Below, piece by piece: positions 48,545 through 53,247 of a DNA stretch of 64,000 nt. Positions within the stretch are counted from its first letter, which is position 1. Each line of letters opens with the position of its first letter. Made by a program: the position numbers and the translations under genes. Source of the DNA: Synechococcus sp. WH 8016 (GTDB lineage: Bacteria; Cyanobacteriota; Cyanobacteriia; PCC-6307; Cyanobiaceae); NCBI RefSeq assembly GCF_000230675.1, contig NZ_AGIK01000003.1, positions 1 through 64,000 on the forward strand, given 5' to 3'. The notes below the pieces were generated by a model. The model saw nothing but the letters and a program-made list of their open reading frames with translations, ran no database searches and was not told the DNA's origin.

Positions 48545-49543
48545 GTGCCTGTGCAGCCGCTGCCCCGCCGACAACAGGAGGTGCTCAGGGCCACAGTGCA
48601 CCACTACGTAGACACCATTGAGCCAGTGGGGAGCCGAACCCTGGTTCAGAGGTTCGATCTGCAAGCCAGTGCTGCCACCGTGCGTTCAGCCATGGGGGCT
48701 TTGGAGCAGCGGGGTCTTCTCACCCAACCACATACATCTGCCGGACGGGTTCCAAGCCCCAGTGGATACAGGCATTACGTGGATTGTCTGCTTCCGAAGC
48801 CCGGAACAATCGCCCAACATCTCGATCAGGAGTTAACCCAACTCAGCCTTCGCTGGGCAGCGCTTGATGATCTGCTCCAAAACATGGCGAGAAGGCTCAC
48901 CGATTTCACGGGACTGATGAGCCTGATCACGCACCCCAGCCAAGGGCAACCCGCACTGGAAGCGATCCGACTGGTGCGCAGCGAGGAGCGCTTGCTGGTG
49001 ATGTTGGTGAAGAATTCCAGCCAAGCCAGTCACCTCAATCTTCGGCTGCCCTACGGCAGTGAGCACCAAATCGAAGCGATGGATCAATGGGCGCGTCGGC
49101 AGCTCGACGGCAACGGCCGTTTGAATTGGAATGCACTGCCAAGAGAATTGCAGGCCTGCGGCAGAGCCCTCCGCGATGCCATTGACAGCCATCAGACCTT
49201 GCAAACCACCCAAGAAACCAAGGCTCTCTTTCATGGCGTGTCTCGGCTCGTCGCCGAGCCCGAATTCAGCCAAAGCGCCAAGCTCAGACCACTCCTTGAA
49301 TTGATGGATCAGAGTCCTGCAGCCCTAACCCTCTCCGCTTCCGGTCCTGGATATGGCGTCTGGATCGGCCAAGAACATCCCGAACAGGCTTTGCACCACT
49401 GCTCAGTGGTTCAAGCCACCTGCACAAGCTCCACAGACGGCGTGGGGCATGTGGCGCTTGTGGGGCCAATGCGCATGGCCTACGCCACAGCACTCGCTGC
49501 CGTTAAGAGTGCCGCCCATCATCTCGAGAATCTTCTGAACTGA
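48545..49543 (+). CDS. hrcA: Heat-shock repressor HrcA
   Basis: Represses groESL-type heat-shock genes by binding CIRCE operators. 332 residues from GTG 48545: N-terminal winged HTH PRRQQEVLRATVHHYVDTIE, SASAATVRSAMGALEQRGLL-type segment (SAATVRSAMGALEQRGLL), PHTSAGRVPSPSGYRHYVD, and a C-terminal GAF-like dimer domain ending VGPMRMAYATALAAVKSA. No CIRCE element was seen upstream of it. One base separates its stop from the next ATG. Confidence 0.95.
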   Translation: MPVQPLPRRQQEVLRATVHHYVDTIEPVGSRTLVQRFDLQASAATVRSAMGALEQRGLLTQPHTSAGRVPSPSGYRHYVDCLLPKPGTIAQHLDQELTQLSLRWAALDDLLQNMARRLTDFTGLMSLITHPSQGQPALEAIRLVRSEERLLVMLVKNSSQASHLNLRLPYGSEHQIEAMDQWARRQLDGNGRLNWNALPRELQACGRALRDAIDSHQTLQTTQETKALFHGVSRLVAEPEFSQSAKLRPLLELMDQSPAALTLSASGPGYGVWIGQEHPEQALHHCSVVQATCTSSTDGVGHVALVGPMRMAYATALAAVKSAAHHLENLLN

Positions 49544-49544
49544 C

Positions 49545-50768
49545 ATGGCGTTCCAAGGAAGACCCCTGCCCCCCCCGGTCGCCATCGTCCTCGGACTCAG
49601 CATCGGGGGGGCTTTGTTTGCCATTTGGAGCGGTGTCAACCTGACAACGAACCAGGAGCCGTTTGAGCCCGCGCCGAACACCTCGATTGCCTCCAACGAG
49701 GCAGAACGAAGCGTTGCGAGCGAGAACCTTGATTCACTTCTCAACGAAGAACCCCGCCCTTGGTTGCTGGCACAGTCCCTTCCCCTGAAAGGCCCCTCCG
49801 GGCATATCGGAGAGCGCTTCGCCCTAGGTATCGACACTGTTCTACGAGAGTTGAATAACCGTGGTGGCATCGCCGGACGCCCCGTCAAGGTTTGGCGGAT
49901 CGATGATGGCTATGAGCCAGAAAATACGCTGCGTAATACCCGCTTTTTTGCGGCCGAGCCTGATGTTTTGGCCCTCTTCGGCTTTTTTGGCACACCCACG
50001 AGCAAAGCGGCCCTACCGATTGCCAAGACGGCGGGACTCACCCTTGTTGCTCCTCTCACAGGTGCTAGCGCCCTACGGGCACAAGGTCAGACAGGGGTGT
50101 TGCACTTCCGAGCCAGCTATGCGGAAGAAGCTCGGCGGATCGTCAATCACCTCGTCAACGACGGCTTCGTCAGAATTGCAGTGGCGTATCAGAACGACGC
50201 CTATGGAAAAGACGTGCTTGCCAGCACAGTGGAGGCCCTGAAAAAGCACAATCTCAGCGCTGTCAGCACAGCGGCCCTACCACGAAACTCCATTGAAACA
50301 AAGCAAGCCGCCGACACGATTATCAAATCAAAGCCCGATGCCCTCATCGTGATCTCACTGAGCAAAACGATGGCCTCGTTGGTGAACAACCTGCATCGAA
50401 ATGGCAGCCGCCCGCAATTAATGACCATCTCTCCAACAGGAACCAAAGCGCTGTTTCGGGATCTACCGCAAGCAGCCGCCTTTGGCGTTGGTGTCACACA
50501 AGTTGTGCCCTTCCCTTGGGATGCACGGCACCCAGATGTCGCGAGCTACCAACGACTCCTACGTCAGCAGCAGCAGGATGGTGAAGTTGATTTCGATTTC
50601 TACAGCCTCGAAGGCTTCATGGCAGCGCAATGGCTCGTTGAGGCGATGGAATCGATTGCTCCAGATATCAACCGGGATCGACTCGTCGATGAACTGAGAC
50701 GCACCACTCCAGGATTACATCGCAGTATCGATTTGGTCTTCCTTGGCAGCGATCCCTGGGAACCCTAA
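49545..50768 (+). CDS. Membrane-anchored periplasmic-binding protein (type 1, branched-chain amino acid-like)
   Basis: 407 residues. An N-terminal membrane segment (12-31) without a lipobox Cys, a polar linker, then a Peripla_BP_6-type domain from about 74: PLKGPSGHIGERFALGIDTV, LNNRGGIAGRPV, LFGFFGTPTSKAALPIA, APLTGASALR, VAYQNDAYGKDV, DALIVISLS and LEGFMAAQWLVEAM. The fold binds amino acids, amides or similar small molecules. No permease or ATPase genes are adjacent, so it may be a sensor rather than a transporter part. It starts 1 nt after hrcA and faces the ion-channel-like gene. Confidence 0.87.
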   Translation: MAFQGRPLPPPVAIVLGLSIGGALFAIWSGVNLTTNQEPFEPAPNTSIASNEAERSVASENLDSLLNEEPRPWLLAQSLPLKGPSGHIGERFALGIDTVLRELNNRGGIAGRPVKVWRIDDGYEPENTLRNTRFFAAEPDVLALFGFFGTPTSKAALPIAKTAGLTLVAPLTGASALRAQGQTGVLHFRASYAEEARRIVNHLVNDGFVRIAVAYQNDAYGKDVLASTVEALKKHNLSAVSTAALPRNSIETKQAADTIIKSKPDALIVISLSKTMASLVNNLHRNGSRPQLMTISPTGTKALFRDLPQAAAFGVGVTQVVPFPWDARHPDVASYQRLLRQQQQDGEVDFDFYSLEGFMAAQWLVEAMESIAPDINRDRLVDELRRTTPGLHRSIDLVFLGSDPWEP

Positions 50769-50790
50769 AAAGGTTGTTAGATCAACAACC
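50767..50790 (-). terminator. Terminator of the channel-like gene, embedded at its stop codon
   Basis: GGTTGTT (50772-50778) pairs with AACAACC (50784-50790) around a 5 nt loop; on the minus strand a T run follows (50767-50771). The hairpin contains the stop codon of the channel-like gene, and the T run includes part of the stop codon of the facing gene. The two coding ends are only 8 nt apart. Confidence 0.7.
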
Positions 50791-51994
50791 AGCTAGCTAT
50801 TGACAACAAAACCATAACGATAAGAGAAATAGGAGGCCAAAATTGCTCATAAAAATGAATACGTCCCAAAATCAAATCTCGACGCTCATTGGTCTCCAGA
50901 CCCGCTCGTCTCTTGAGACTCTCAAGATAGAGAACGAGCGCAAAACTAACGATTGAAAGGATGTAAGCAATCGCATAAATCGAGTCTAGAAACGAAAGAT
51001 AAGGGAGGCTTGGCAGCTCTGATCGATATCCGTCTTGCAAAAAGATCAGCGTTAACAGAACGGCGATCGGGATCTCAACACGAAACTCTGTCAGCACCCG
51101 GGTAATCAAAACAATCGAGGCCATCACCACAACCAGGGGCTGAATCAAAGTCCAGAATGCAGACCAAGAAGACTTTTGATAAGACACATCAAAAATAAGC
51201 TGGCTGTATTCCTCATCCACAGCGCTAACGCCAAGTCCCGAGGCAAAGTGATGCCGAAATTCCCCAAAAGACCAGCCGCGCGTGAGCCAGCCAAAGAGAT
51301 CAGAATACTGACCAATCCCGCTATCCCTTAAATCAGGAATCAAGCGAAGACTTTGATAGGTCAGATCACCAACAGGATCATCAGCTTCAAGAACAACAGG
51401 GAGACTCACTGAATTAAAAGGAAACCTCCGCAAGTCCAAGTTATCAATGTAAAAATCCCCTGTGTACAACATCCCTTGCCCAAAAGTGCCGTCTTCAAAT
51501 TCACGGACGTTCCGCAAAGGCGTGATTACAGATGTTTCCGGATTGATATCATTTTCAAGTCCAATTACCTCGGAAATAGCCAAGCCTCTTTCTTCCAAGT
51601 AATCCTGGAAAGGCTTTCCCCAACGCATCCAGATATATCCCTTGCTGGAAAAGCTAGGAACTTCCAGATCCAGACTGAAGTTATTCGCGACGTAAATACC
51701 TGCATAGACCTTGTATTTTGCCGCTTCCAGAAGTTCCGAATCACGCAGAACTTCCGCCCCCTTTAATGGCCTGCCACGAGCCGCAGCATCAGGCGCTTCA
51801 TTACGAATGTGAGGAGTACTCGTGAGCCGAAGCAATTCTCGAGAACTGATCACATCTAAATTTTCTCTACCAAGAAATTGAACCAGAAAAATCCCAGAGA
51901 TTACAATCACCAGGACGAGGAGAAAGTCCCAAAAGTTTAATCTGATGCGCAACATCTTGGGATACTTCAACAATCGCTGAAGCACAGTCTTCAA
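50777..51994 (-). CDS. Pentameric ligand-gated ion channel-like protein
   Basis: 405 residues from TTG 51994 (ATG 51955 is an alternative). N-terminal helix 23-41, a 230-residue extracytoplasmic beta-rich domain, then four helices grouped as in Cys-loop/pro-loop channels: M1 278-299 with Pro286, M2 306-322, M3 332-358, and M4 386-405 after a charged loop. Other hallmarks: [17 protein letters not shown] (94-110), W125 [15 protein letters not shown] (186-198, the pro-loop) and [11 protein letters not shown] (327-337). These patterns fit bacterial channels such as GLIC and ELIC; ligand and ion are unknown. Its start overlaps the trpB stop, and it faces a periplasmic-binding protein gene. Confidence 0.65.
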
Positions 51995-53247
51995 AGCTGA
52001 CTTCCAAGTTTTTCCGCCACGGTATTCACATCTTTATCACCACGACCAGAACAATTGATCACAATTTCGCTGCCGCTGGGAAGCGTGGGGCACAACATTT
52101 CCAGCCAAGCAAACGCATGGGCGGTTTCCAAAGCGGGAATGATTCCCTCCAACTCACTCACAAGCCGTAAAGCGGAGAGCGCCTCATCGTCCGTCACGGC
52201 AGCGTATTCAGCGCGGCCGATATCCCGCAGATAACTGTGCTCTGGCCCCACACCGGGATAATCAAGACCAGCACTGATGGAATGCGCTTCCTGCACTTGG
52301 CCGTCCTGATCTTGAAGAAGCAGGCTCATCGCCCCATGCAGCACCCCCACTCGGCCCTCCGTAATCGTGGCGGCATGACGTCCAGTTTCCACTCCATCAC
52401 CAGCGGCCTCAACGCCAATCAGACGAACAGAGGTGTCTTGCACAAACGGATGGAAGAGCCCCATCGCATTGGAACCTCCACCCACACATGCCAACAACAC
52501 ATCAGGAAGCCGCCCAAACGACTCCATGCACTGCTCCCGGGCTTCATTGCCTATCACGGCATGGAAGTCACGCACCAACATCGGATAGGGGTGGGGACCA
52601 GCCACGGATCCAAGGATGTAGTGGGTGGTTTCCACATTGGTCACCCAATCTCGGATGGCTTCGCTCGTCGCGTCCTTCAAGGTGGCGGTTCCTGCCGTGA
52701 CCGGCTGAACGGTGGCTCCCAATAAGCGCATCCGGAACACATTCAGCGCCTGACGGCGCATGTCTTCAGCCCCCATGTAGACCACGCACTCCAGGCCGAA
52801 ACGAGCGCAGACCGTTGCGGTGGCCACGCCATGCTGACCGGCACCGGTTTCAGCAATGATTCGCTTCTTGCCCATACGCAAGGCCAACAACGCCTGACCA
52901 AGGGCATTGTTGATTTTGTGGGCACCCGTGTGGTTGAGATCTTCGCGCTTCAACCAGATGCGTGGACCCCCATCGGAACGGCGATAGTGAGCGGTGAGAC
53001 GCTCCGCTTCGTAGAGGGGTGTGGCTCGCCCTACATAGGATTTCAGCAGCCGGTTGAGCTCAGTCGTGAAGGCTGAATCCTTCCACGCTTCAGCCGCCGC
53101 TTGTTCAAGCTCAGCAAGCGCTGGCATCAGCGTTTCGGGAACGTACTGCCCTCCATAACGACCAAACCGACCGTGAGCTTCAGGCCGAACCGAAGGCGTC
53201 AGGCTGGCTGGATCTGGGGTGCTGGCAGTCGGCAGAGTGCTTGTCAC
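51991..53247 (-). CDS. trpB: Tryptophan synthase beta chain
   Basis: Pyridoxal-phosphate enzyme that joins indole and serine. 418 residues from GTG 53247: [39 protein letters not shown] with Lys111 as the PLP Schiff-base lysine, [29 protein letters not shown] and the glycine-rich phosphate site, and [15 protein letters not shown] short variable N-terminal extension (1-24). trpA is not adjacent. The stop overlaps the start of the channel-like gene. Confidence 0.97.

Follow-up and report, generated by a model that had tools for sequence, protein, structure and literature searches.

What bacterial relatives of the nerve-receptor channels do in physiology, and which natural ligands they bind, is a long-standing question, and a locus of the cyanobacterium Synechococcus sp. 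WH 8016 raises it in a particular form. In the stretch of DNA analyzed here, which is referred to as the window (64,000 nucleotides [nt]; contig NZ_AGIK01000003.1, positions 1–64,000 of the forward strand), a gene for a type I periplasmic binding protein (PBP) meets a gene for a homologue of the pentameric ligand-gated ion channels (pLGICs), and it may be asked whether the two products belong together. We found that a pLGIC and a separate PBP are inherited side by side in marine and freshwater picocyanobacteria and that the pairing is real. A short stretch of the channel loses its conservation when the partner gene is gone, and this points to joint work of the two proteins, one as a detachable sensor and the other as a pore.

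The original prediction, made from the letters of this stretch, had pointed out that binding-protein domains joined to such channels were already described in prokaryotes, and this is borne out by fusions of type I PBP (PBP-I) domains to pLGICs in Magnetospirillum magnetotacticum and Bradyrhizobium japonicum, which are reported in passages of Tasneem et al (2004; PMC549065). The same passages describe genes for type II PBPs (PBP-II) and Cache proteins beside other channels and propose cooperation in the chemosensing of amino acids or other small solutes. They also list a Synechococcus channel, call the cyanobacterial forms simple in architecture, and mention stand-alone PBP-II (not PBP-I) neighbours in "some bacteria", among which a Synechococcus case may be included. 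The words "periplasmic" and "PBP" are absent from the main text of Jaiteh et al (2016; PMC4795631), as far as that text was accessible. Among the matches listed in a literature search by title and abstract opening, which covered few subscription papers, there was no stand-alone PBP-I gene paired with a pLGIC, no PBP family shared with bestrophin-like channels, and no description of the channel segment discussed below. The coupling of a PBP to a pLGIC has been known since 2004 in the form of fusions, and the pair of separate genes is a new form of it.

Results

Linkage of the PBP and channel genes

Among the 300 genomes of the family that made up the survey, 102 contained a match to the channel query (E 1e-3) and 48 a match to the PBP query (E 1e-20). 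Linkage was counted for all 63 PBP matches against 73 channel matches, which comprised the 36%-and-above class, fragments, and relics among the matches listed. In this count, 52 of the 63 PBP matches were located less than 1 kb from a listed channel match, 45 of them head-to-head (divergent) and seven tail-to-tail (convergent). The seven convergent pairs, two of which are relics, are all at the site of the window pair, and the tail-to-tail layout with 8 nt between the stop codons is confined to this one site in one genus, most pairs elsewhere being head-to-head. The linkage of the PBP and the channel, thus, persists through two orientations, and tandem duplicates (L142 and L146) keep both genes. 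The two-gene neighbourhood that the original prediction had singled out is conserved in relatives, as these 52 matches indicate. A scan of viral_contigs gave 226 pattern matches with no relative among them.

Release of constraint in the channel where the PBP is lost

The stretch that loses conservation is the predicted periplasmic N-segment (residues 43–92), which connects an extra N-terminal helix (M0) with the beta-sandwich domain. Among the close relatives of the PBP-linked channels, there are four PBP-less ones (L158; L104, L156, and L169), in the genomes of which no PBP match was listed. The channel tree needs at least three label changes, and the four PBP-less rows sit in two places nested among PBP-linked rows. 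They are read as representing two losses of the PBP, one in L158 and another shared by L104, L156, and L169.

For a column scan, we used the 224 columns that are conserved in 45 PBP-linked channels, 19 of them in residues 43–92 and 205 elsewhere, the reference omitting the convergent group of the window (five rows) and L133/L115. In the four PBP-less channels, 6–8 of the 19 N-segment columns deviated, compared with 3–12 of the 205 columns elsewhere (p 1e-6 to 6e-5, values that ignore relatedness and multiple tests, with several of the 45 reference rows being near-copies). In a leave-out test, all 45 PBP-linked channels had 0–3 N-segment deviations (p 0.085 or more). Among the 91 transmembrane-domain columns, none deviated in L158 and none in all three of L104, L156, and L169, and among the 102 columns of the extracytoplasmic domain, three deviated in all three of the latter and four in L158. 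Conserved columns of the N-segment, thus, break down where the PBP is lost. The simplest interpretation would be that contact with the PBP keeps this segment from changing and that the pore continues to work without it. This apparent release of constraint is the strongest evidence for the pairing.

History of the hrcA–trpB site

The window pair lies between hrcA and trpB. HrcA was found in 29 of the 31 genomes of the genus, and the hrcA–trpB site was examined in those 29. The site holds an intact pair with open frames in six genomes (G000, G001, G002, G010, G014, and G021) and relics in four, where fragments of both genes remain (G006 and G027), fragments of the channel together with a trace of the PBP (G024), or a fragment of the PBP (G011); it is empty in the other 19. 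No genome with one gene intact and the other broken or missing was found at the site among the 29. This joint presence and joint decay represents moderate evidence for pairing, because a single deletion across the shared gene ends can break both genes.

Fold and pore of the channel

The minus-strand gene was confirmed, on the basis of a structural model, to have the fold of the pLGIC (pro-loop/Cys-loop) superfamily. With the single channel sequence, a phmmer search of the PDB gave weak but significant matches to ELIC (E 7e-5) and GLIC (E 3e-4). NCBIfam LGIC_1 matched at E 0.0013, far under the cut-off, a Pfam scan of the channel protein gave zero matches, and a relative (L111) reached Neur_chan_memb in Pfam at E 7.5e-5, below the cut-off. 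A profile from 44 channel sequences matched ELIC at E 1.6e-19 and GLIC at E 2.9e-13. The AlphaFold2 (AF2) model, with a predicted local distance difference test (pLDDT) score of 82, has a helix at residues 21–42, a beta-rich domain at about 94–275, and four helices at 276–299, 307–324, 335–366, and 369–404. Foldseek with this model retrieved GLIC and sTeLIC (E ~1e-17), and VIA-align gave GLIC as the top structural match (Z 22.0, root-mean-square deviation 2.9 Å, 282 residues, ~20% identity), the alignment with GLIC beginning at channel residue 90.

The architecture that had been read from the sequence, a beta-rich extracytoplasmic domain followed by four terminal helices, was thus recovered as the pLGIC beta-sandwich and four-helix arrangement, AF2, Foldseek, and VIA-align being in agreement. 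The RRFPFN pro-loop (P192 and F193 invariant in 44 sequences), the proline of M1 (P286, invariant likewise), and the sequence [11 protein letters not shown] between M2 and M3 (residues 327–337) are all present as described, and the additional N-terminal helix, given originally as residues 23–41, was modelled at nearly the same place. Nearly invariant columns of alignment A1 are W22, N23 (D23 in the window), L55, L57, and R73. In M2, the register of which was taken from the alignment with GLIC in the PDB search, -2' is E303 (acidic in 44 of 44 sequences), and R305 (0'), L314 (9'), and F318 (13') are each found in 44 of 44; 2' is E307 in the window channel and mostly a small residue among relatives. 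The invariably acidic -2' position, together with the invariant R305, L314, and F318, predicts a cation-selective pore. An acidic-basic motif marks cation channels according to Tasneem et al (2004; PMC549065).

The binding protein

The neighbour had been identified as a type I PBP without a lipobox and without adjacent ABC transporter genes, and each of these points held for the window. The Peripla_BP_6 match (134 bits against a cut-off of 31.7; E 1.3e-38) covers both lobes (residues 79–387), and the best solved matches are 4kv7 and 3lop. No lipobox was found in the window PBP, and no permease or ATPase gene lies beside it, its flanks being hrcA and, past the channel, trpB. The claim of membrane anchoring stood in part: the window protein has a low-confidence hydrophobic helix at residues 10–30, which may be a signal peptide or an anchor, but anchoring is not a trait of the family, since the N-termini of relatives vary and two of them (L160 and L162) carry a lipobox-like LSAC.

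Of 51 distinct PBPs linked to a pLGIC, 50 terminate in W-x-P, and the one that does not (L178) is a broken reading frame of a metagenome-assembled genome (MAG); five of five bestrophin-linked PBPs (see below) terminate in [FY]I[HN]. The difference is only suggestive, as it tracks clades and may reflect ancestry alone.

Partners other than the window channel

The remaining 11 PBP matches of the survey represent 10 loci, and a bestrophin-like gene is next to the PBP in all 10. This name, which denotes a predicted channel, rests on Pfam PF14023 (L102, L123, L127, L128, and L129) or on similarity to such genes (L184–L188). A binding protein designated PBP_like_2 is often found beside the PBP and the bestrophin-like gene. 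When a bestrophin-linked PBP served as the query in a reverse search, the places recovered were the same except for the two relics, and there was one further locus (L287), at which a bestrophin-like gene is also present. The five bestrophin-linked rows included in the PBP tree group together as a clade, and so do the five convergent rows. No member of the PBP subfamily was beside an ABC transporter among the places found in the survey. The possibility that the window protein is the PBP of an ABC transporter was rejected, because 52 of the 63 matches adjoin a channel and the other 10 loci a bestrophin-like gene.

The genome of WH 8016 itself provides a control. The channel query detected three pLGICs, and Peripla_BP_6 matched four genes over the cut-off; three of these four adjoin the three pLGICs, in the window pair, in a head-to-head pair (C5), and as an overlapping UrtA-like gene (C1). 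The fourth heads an ABC operon, in which genes for two BPD_transp_2 permeases and two ABC ATPases come next. A Na_Ca_ex gene is present at the second pair of WH 8016 and absent at the window pair; it lies 49–116 nt behind the PBP on the same strand in 7 of 92 loci, these seven making up a single clade in the PBP tree, was identified by Pfam in L092, L103, and L107, and occurs in L107 and L163 in what appears to be the same organism. This Na+/Ca2+ exchanger neighbour is a hint of Na+ or Ca2+ handling or signalling and would fit a Na+ or Ca2+ current.

The channel beside the UrtA-like gene belongs to a second pLGIC class, and of the 11 loci of this class in the genus, 10 have a UrtA-like (Peripla_BP_5) gene immediately downstream, as in L093:5480-7926, L014–L018, and L025–L028. 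The remaining locus, L019, has only 28% identity to the class, and a UrtA-type partner was found in none of six loci outside the genus. Channels of this class are candidates for the sensing of urea or amides. At L161:7537-8012 and L027:1063-1310, the intact UrtA-linked channel is accompanied by a broken second copy.

Locus layout and further observations

The features of the locus are collected in Table 1. The coding ends are 8 nt apart, as had been stated. The hrcA stop is followed after 1 nt by the start codon of the PBP, which is presumably the tail of the hrcA transcription unit, and the TTG start of the channel overlaps the stop of the right flank, a PALP match that we take to be trpB, by 4 nt (TTGA). 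The two genes, thus, each stand on the tail of a different resident unit. The GC content of the channel gene is 45%, compared with 55% in the window and 56–59% in hrcA, the PBP gene, and trpB, and the history or the expression of the two partners may not be the same. Purifying selection acts on both genes, with dN/dS ratios (nonsynonymous to synonymous substitution rates) of 0.04–0.09 for the channel and 0.10–0.20 for the PBP in the four of five comparisons for each gene that were not saturated.

Table 1. Position of the paired genes, their parts, and their flanks in the window
Feature	Coordinates	Strand	Basis
hrcA, left flank	48545..49543	+	Pfam HrcA E 1.1e-32
PBP, type I periplasmic binding protein (Peripla_BP_6), 407 amino acids; putative sensor partner	49545..50768	+	Pfam E 1.3e-38; PDB 4kv7 E 2.1e-39; AF2 pLDDT 78.8
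PBP N-terminal hydrophobic helix, residues 10-30; signal peptide or membrane anchor	49572..49634	+	AF2, low confidence
PBP C-terminal W-E-P	50757..50765	+	Comparison of PBP C-termini
Gap separating the two stop codons, 8 nt	50769..50776		Open reading frame (ORF) ends
pLGIC homologue, 405 amino acids, TTG start	50777..51994	-	PDB search, profile, AF2, Foldseek, VIA-align
M0, extra N-terminal helix, residues 21-42	51869..51934	-	AF2, block pLDDT 80-82
Periplasmic N-segment, residues 43-92, M0 to beta-sandwich; candidate PBP docking site	51719..51868	-	Column deviations
Motif RELLRLT, residues 52-58, family pattern R[DE]x[LV]RL[STA]	51821..51841	-	Partly short predicted strand (54-57)
Beta-sandwich ligand-binding domain, residues 94-275	51170..51715	-	AF2 model
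Pro-loop RRFPFN, residues 189-194	51413..51430	-	P192 and F193 invariant, 44 sequences
M1 helix, residues 276-299	51098..51169	-	AF2; P286 invariant, 44 sequences
M2 pore segment, residues 303-324	51023..51088	-	Column counts; register from GLIC alignment
M3 helix, residues 335-366	50897..50992	-	AF2
M4 helix, residues 369-404	50783..50890	-	AF2
trpB, right flank, same strand as the channel and upstream of it	51991..53247	-	PALP E 2.1e-43

Several loci of the survey differ in other ways. Five channel ORFs of 668–778 amino acids have long N-terminal extensions (L108:3727-6063, L109:2659-4734, L110:3638-5722, L124:3533-5539, and L126:4355-6502). In L108, L109, L110, and L124, which were the four of the five scanned, no Pfam family was found in the extensions, L109 also had no PDB match, and a PBP–pLGIC fusion was rejected for these four for want of a Pfam PBP. 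In four loci (L174:1760-6975, L172, L168, and L166), four same-strand genes encode a pyridoxal phosphate (PLP) decarboxylase, an ORF of 458–619 amino acids without a Pfam match, a major facilitator superfamily (MFS) transporter, and a pLGIC; the decarboxylase (PF00282) was scanned in L172 and the transporter in L174, and L166 and L168 were assigned by ORF layout only. An amine-making enzyme beside a channel is notable in a family whose member ELIC is amine-gated. At L131:3704-5798, a pLGIC gene and a Tll0287-like gene (PF11845) are arranged head-to-head, and the latter may encode a sensor partner of another kind. The PBP–channel pair also occurs in records titled Bifidobacterium breve and Phycisphaerae MAGs (L151 and L175), which are near-identical in the trees to cyanobacterial copies and are probably mis-binned contigs.

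Discussion

The 52 of 63 linkage, the pattern at the hrcA–trpB site, and the column test of the N-segment led us to reject a chance neighbourhood, and the view of the original prediction that the two genes are a functional pair is well supported by these same three lines. As for how the pair may work, the best-supported reading, which we hold with slightly more belief than doubt, is that the PBP, by docking on the N-segment, regulates a pore selective for cations. The two genes would then encode one split receptor: the PBP would catch a small solute in the periplasm, the liganded (or empty) PBP would dock on channel residues ~43–92, which carry the motif R[DE]x[LV]RL[STA] just after M0, and the docking would shift the gating of the pore. 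We infer the physical docking, its site, the cation selectivity, and a change in current on ligand binding to the PBP. A chemosensory or amino-acid-gated function of the pair, a possibility raised in the original prediction, is a hypothesis.

Several points weigh against this reading. The linkage is inherited within clades, and the 52 cases are not independent; the distances of the two partners correlate, in favour of the pairing (Mantel r 0.83 for 56 pairs, a value reached in 0 of 2000 permutations), but this correlation retains shared species history and includes one mispaired pair (L171_0). The relics at the hrcA–trpB site could have arisen by single deletions over the shared gene ends. Among the matches listed, 21 of the 73 channel rows have no PBP within 1 kb, some of these being contig-end fragments, and 20 more distant channel loci (L265–L284) were checked for a nearby PBP of these kinds, with none found; channels without a PBP, thus, exist, and the pore can function by itself. 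Two losses underlie the N-segment test, and the column scan is independent of the motif, yet the limits of the region, 43–92, were chosen after a first motif count. In that count, a stricter pattern gave 47 of 53 channels with a PBP and 1 of 16 without; the motif was widened afterwards, so that its absence from exactly the 12 PBP-less channels among 65 is a post hoc split. Four PBP-less channels without the motif (L167, L170, L181, and L183) and channels of 380 amino acids or fewer had been dropped from the motif count beforehand, L152, which has the motif and lies at a contig end, was assigned to neither group, and L171 was placed manually among the PBP-less channels, its adjacent PBP belonging to a second, truncated channel.

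A different role for the PBP would be only to concentrate the ligand or hand it over to the beta-sandwich site of the channel, with neither stable docking nor allosteric control. Ligand delivery is the proposal made in a passage of Tasneem et al (2004; PMC549065), which favours it, and the N-termini of the PBP vary among relatives, as those of a loosely tethered delivery protein might; however, the constraint is released in the N-segment and hardly in the beta-sandwich (3 and 4 of the 102 columns), and we consider delivery alone unlikely. The pair might also serve PBP-dependent uptake, the membrane partner being a permease-like pore for a solute or co-ion and not a signalling channel. PBP-dependent secondary transporters exist and would provide the model, and the same PBP subfamily adjoins bestrophin-like membrane proteins, often with PBP_like_2 as a second binding protein. 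Against such uptake, which we regard as quite improbable, pLGIC pores are established to conduct ions, not nutrients, and M2 keeps the acidic -2' and the 9' leucine as in gated cation channels. Finally, the neighbours might share only their regulation or the history of a selfish island, their products not interacting, and it is in accordance with this that the window genes belong to different resident transcription units (1-nt spacing and 4-nt overlap, respectively), not one operon, and that the channel gene is AT-richer than its surroundings. However, the linkage survives a change in orientation, and the N-segment diverges specifically where the PBP is missing, an effect that one would not anticipate from losing shared regulation. 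The absence of any interaction appears the least probable of these explanations.

Docking and regulation, which remain our preferred reading, can be compared with known systems. The PBP-I/pLGIC fusions share with the window pair the coupling of a type I PBP to a pLGIC core; the fusions are one polypeptide, whereas here there are two ORFs on opposite strands and the channel has its own N-terminal helix and conserved segment. GLIC of Gloeobacter, a proton-gated channel by its PDB molecule name, and ELIC of Erwinia/Dickeya, which is reported to be gated by primary amines, have the fold, the pro-loop, the M1 proline, and the M2 register in common with the window channel, and GLIC also the acidic -2'. 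M0 and the N-segment are additions to the GLIC plan, and to our knowledge, neither GLIC nor ELIC has an M0 helix or an N-segment. DeCLIC is likewise a prokaryotic pLGIC, and its gating is modulated by an accessory module in the periplasm, as proposed here for the window channel; it differs in that its N-terminal domain is fused and consists of two jelly-roll lobes rather than a separate PBP (PMC12664993, PMC9897478). UrtA of UrtA-UrtBCDE and the PBPs of other amino-acid/amide ABC transporters belong to the same fold family (Peripla_BP_5/6) as the window PBP, but such ABC systems, including the UrtA-like operon of WH 8016 itself, have permease and ATPase genes, which the window PBP does not. 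A conceptual likeness exists to the NMDA and AMPA receptors, in which a PBP-like domain controls an ion channel (PMC12664993), although their pore family is unrelated and they are single polypeptides.

It is possible, though we would sooner doubt than assert it, that the PBP subfamily supplies ion channels in general with a dedicated sensory subunit that is detachable, the W-x-P set acting with pLGICs via the N-segment and the [FY]I[HN] clade with bestrophin-like channels. If so, "binding-protein-gated channels" would be a modular class in picocyanobacteria, the solute-binding half of which would have been taken over from nutrient uptake and exchanged among pores of unrelated families.

For the function of the bacterial pLGICs, a natural genetic experiment, in which the PBP was apparently lost twice, singles out one short part of the channel as the probable site of contact with a sensor protein encoded separately, and the coupling is directly testable in culturable marine Synechococcus such as WH7803. 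If the coupling is true, evolution would have linked a nutrient-uptake sensor to ion channels in trans, in parallel to the fused binding-protein domains of the glutamate receptors.

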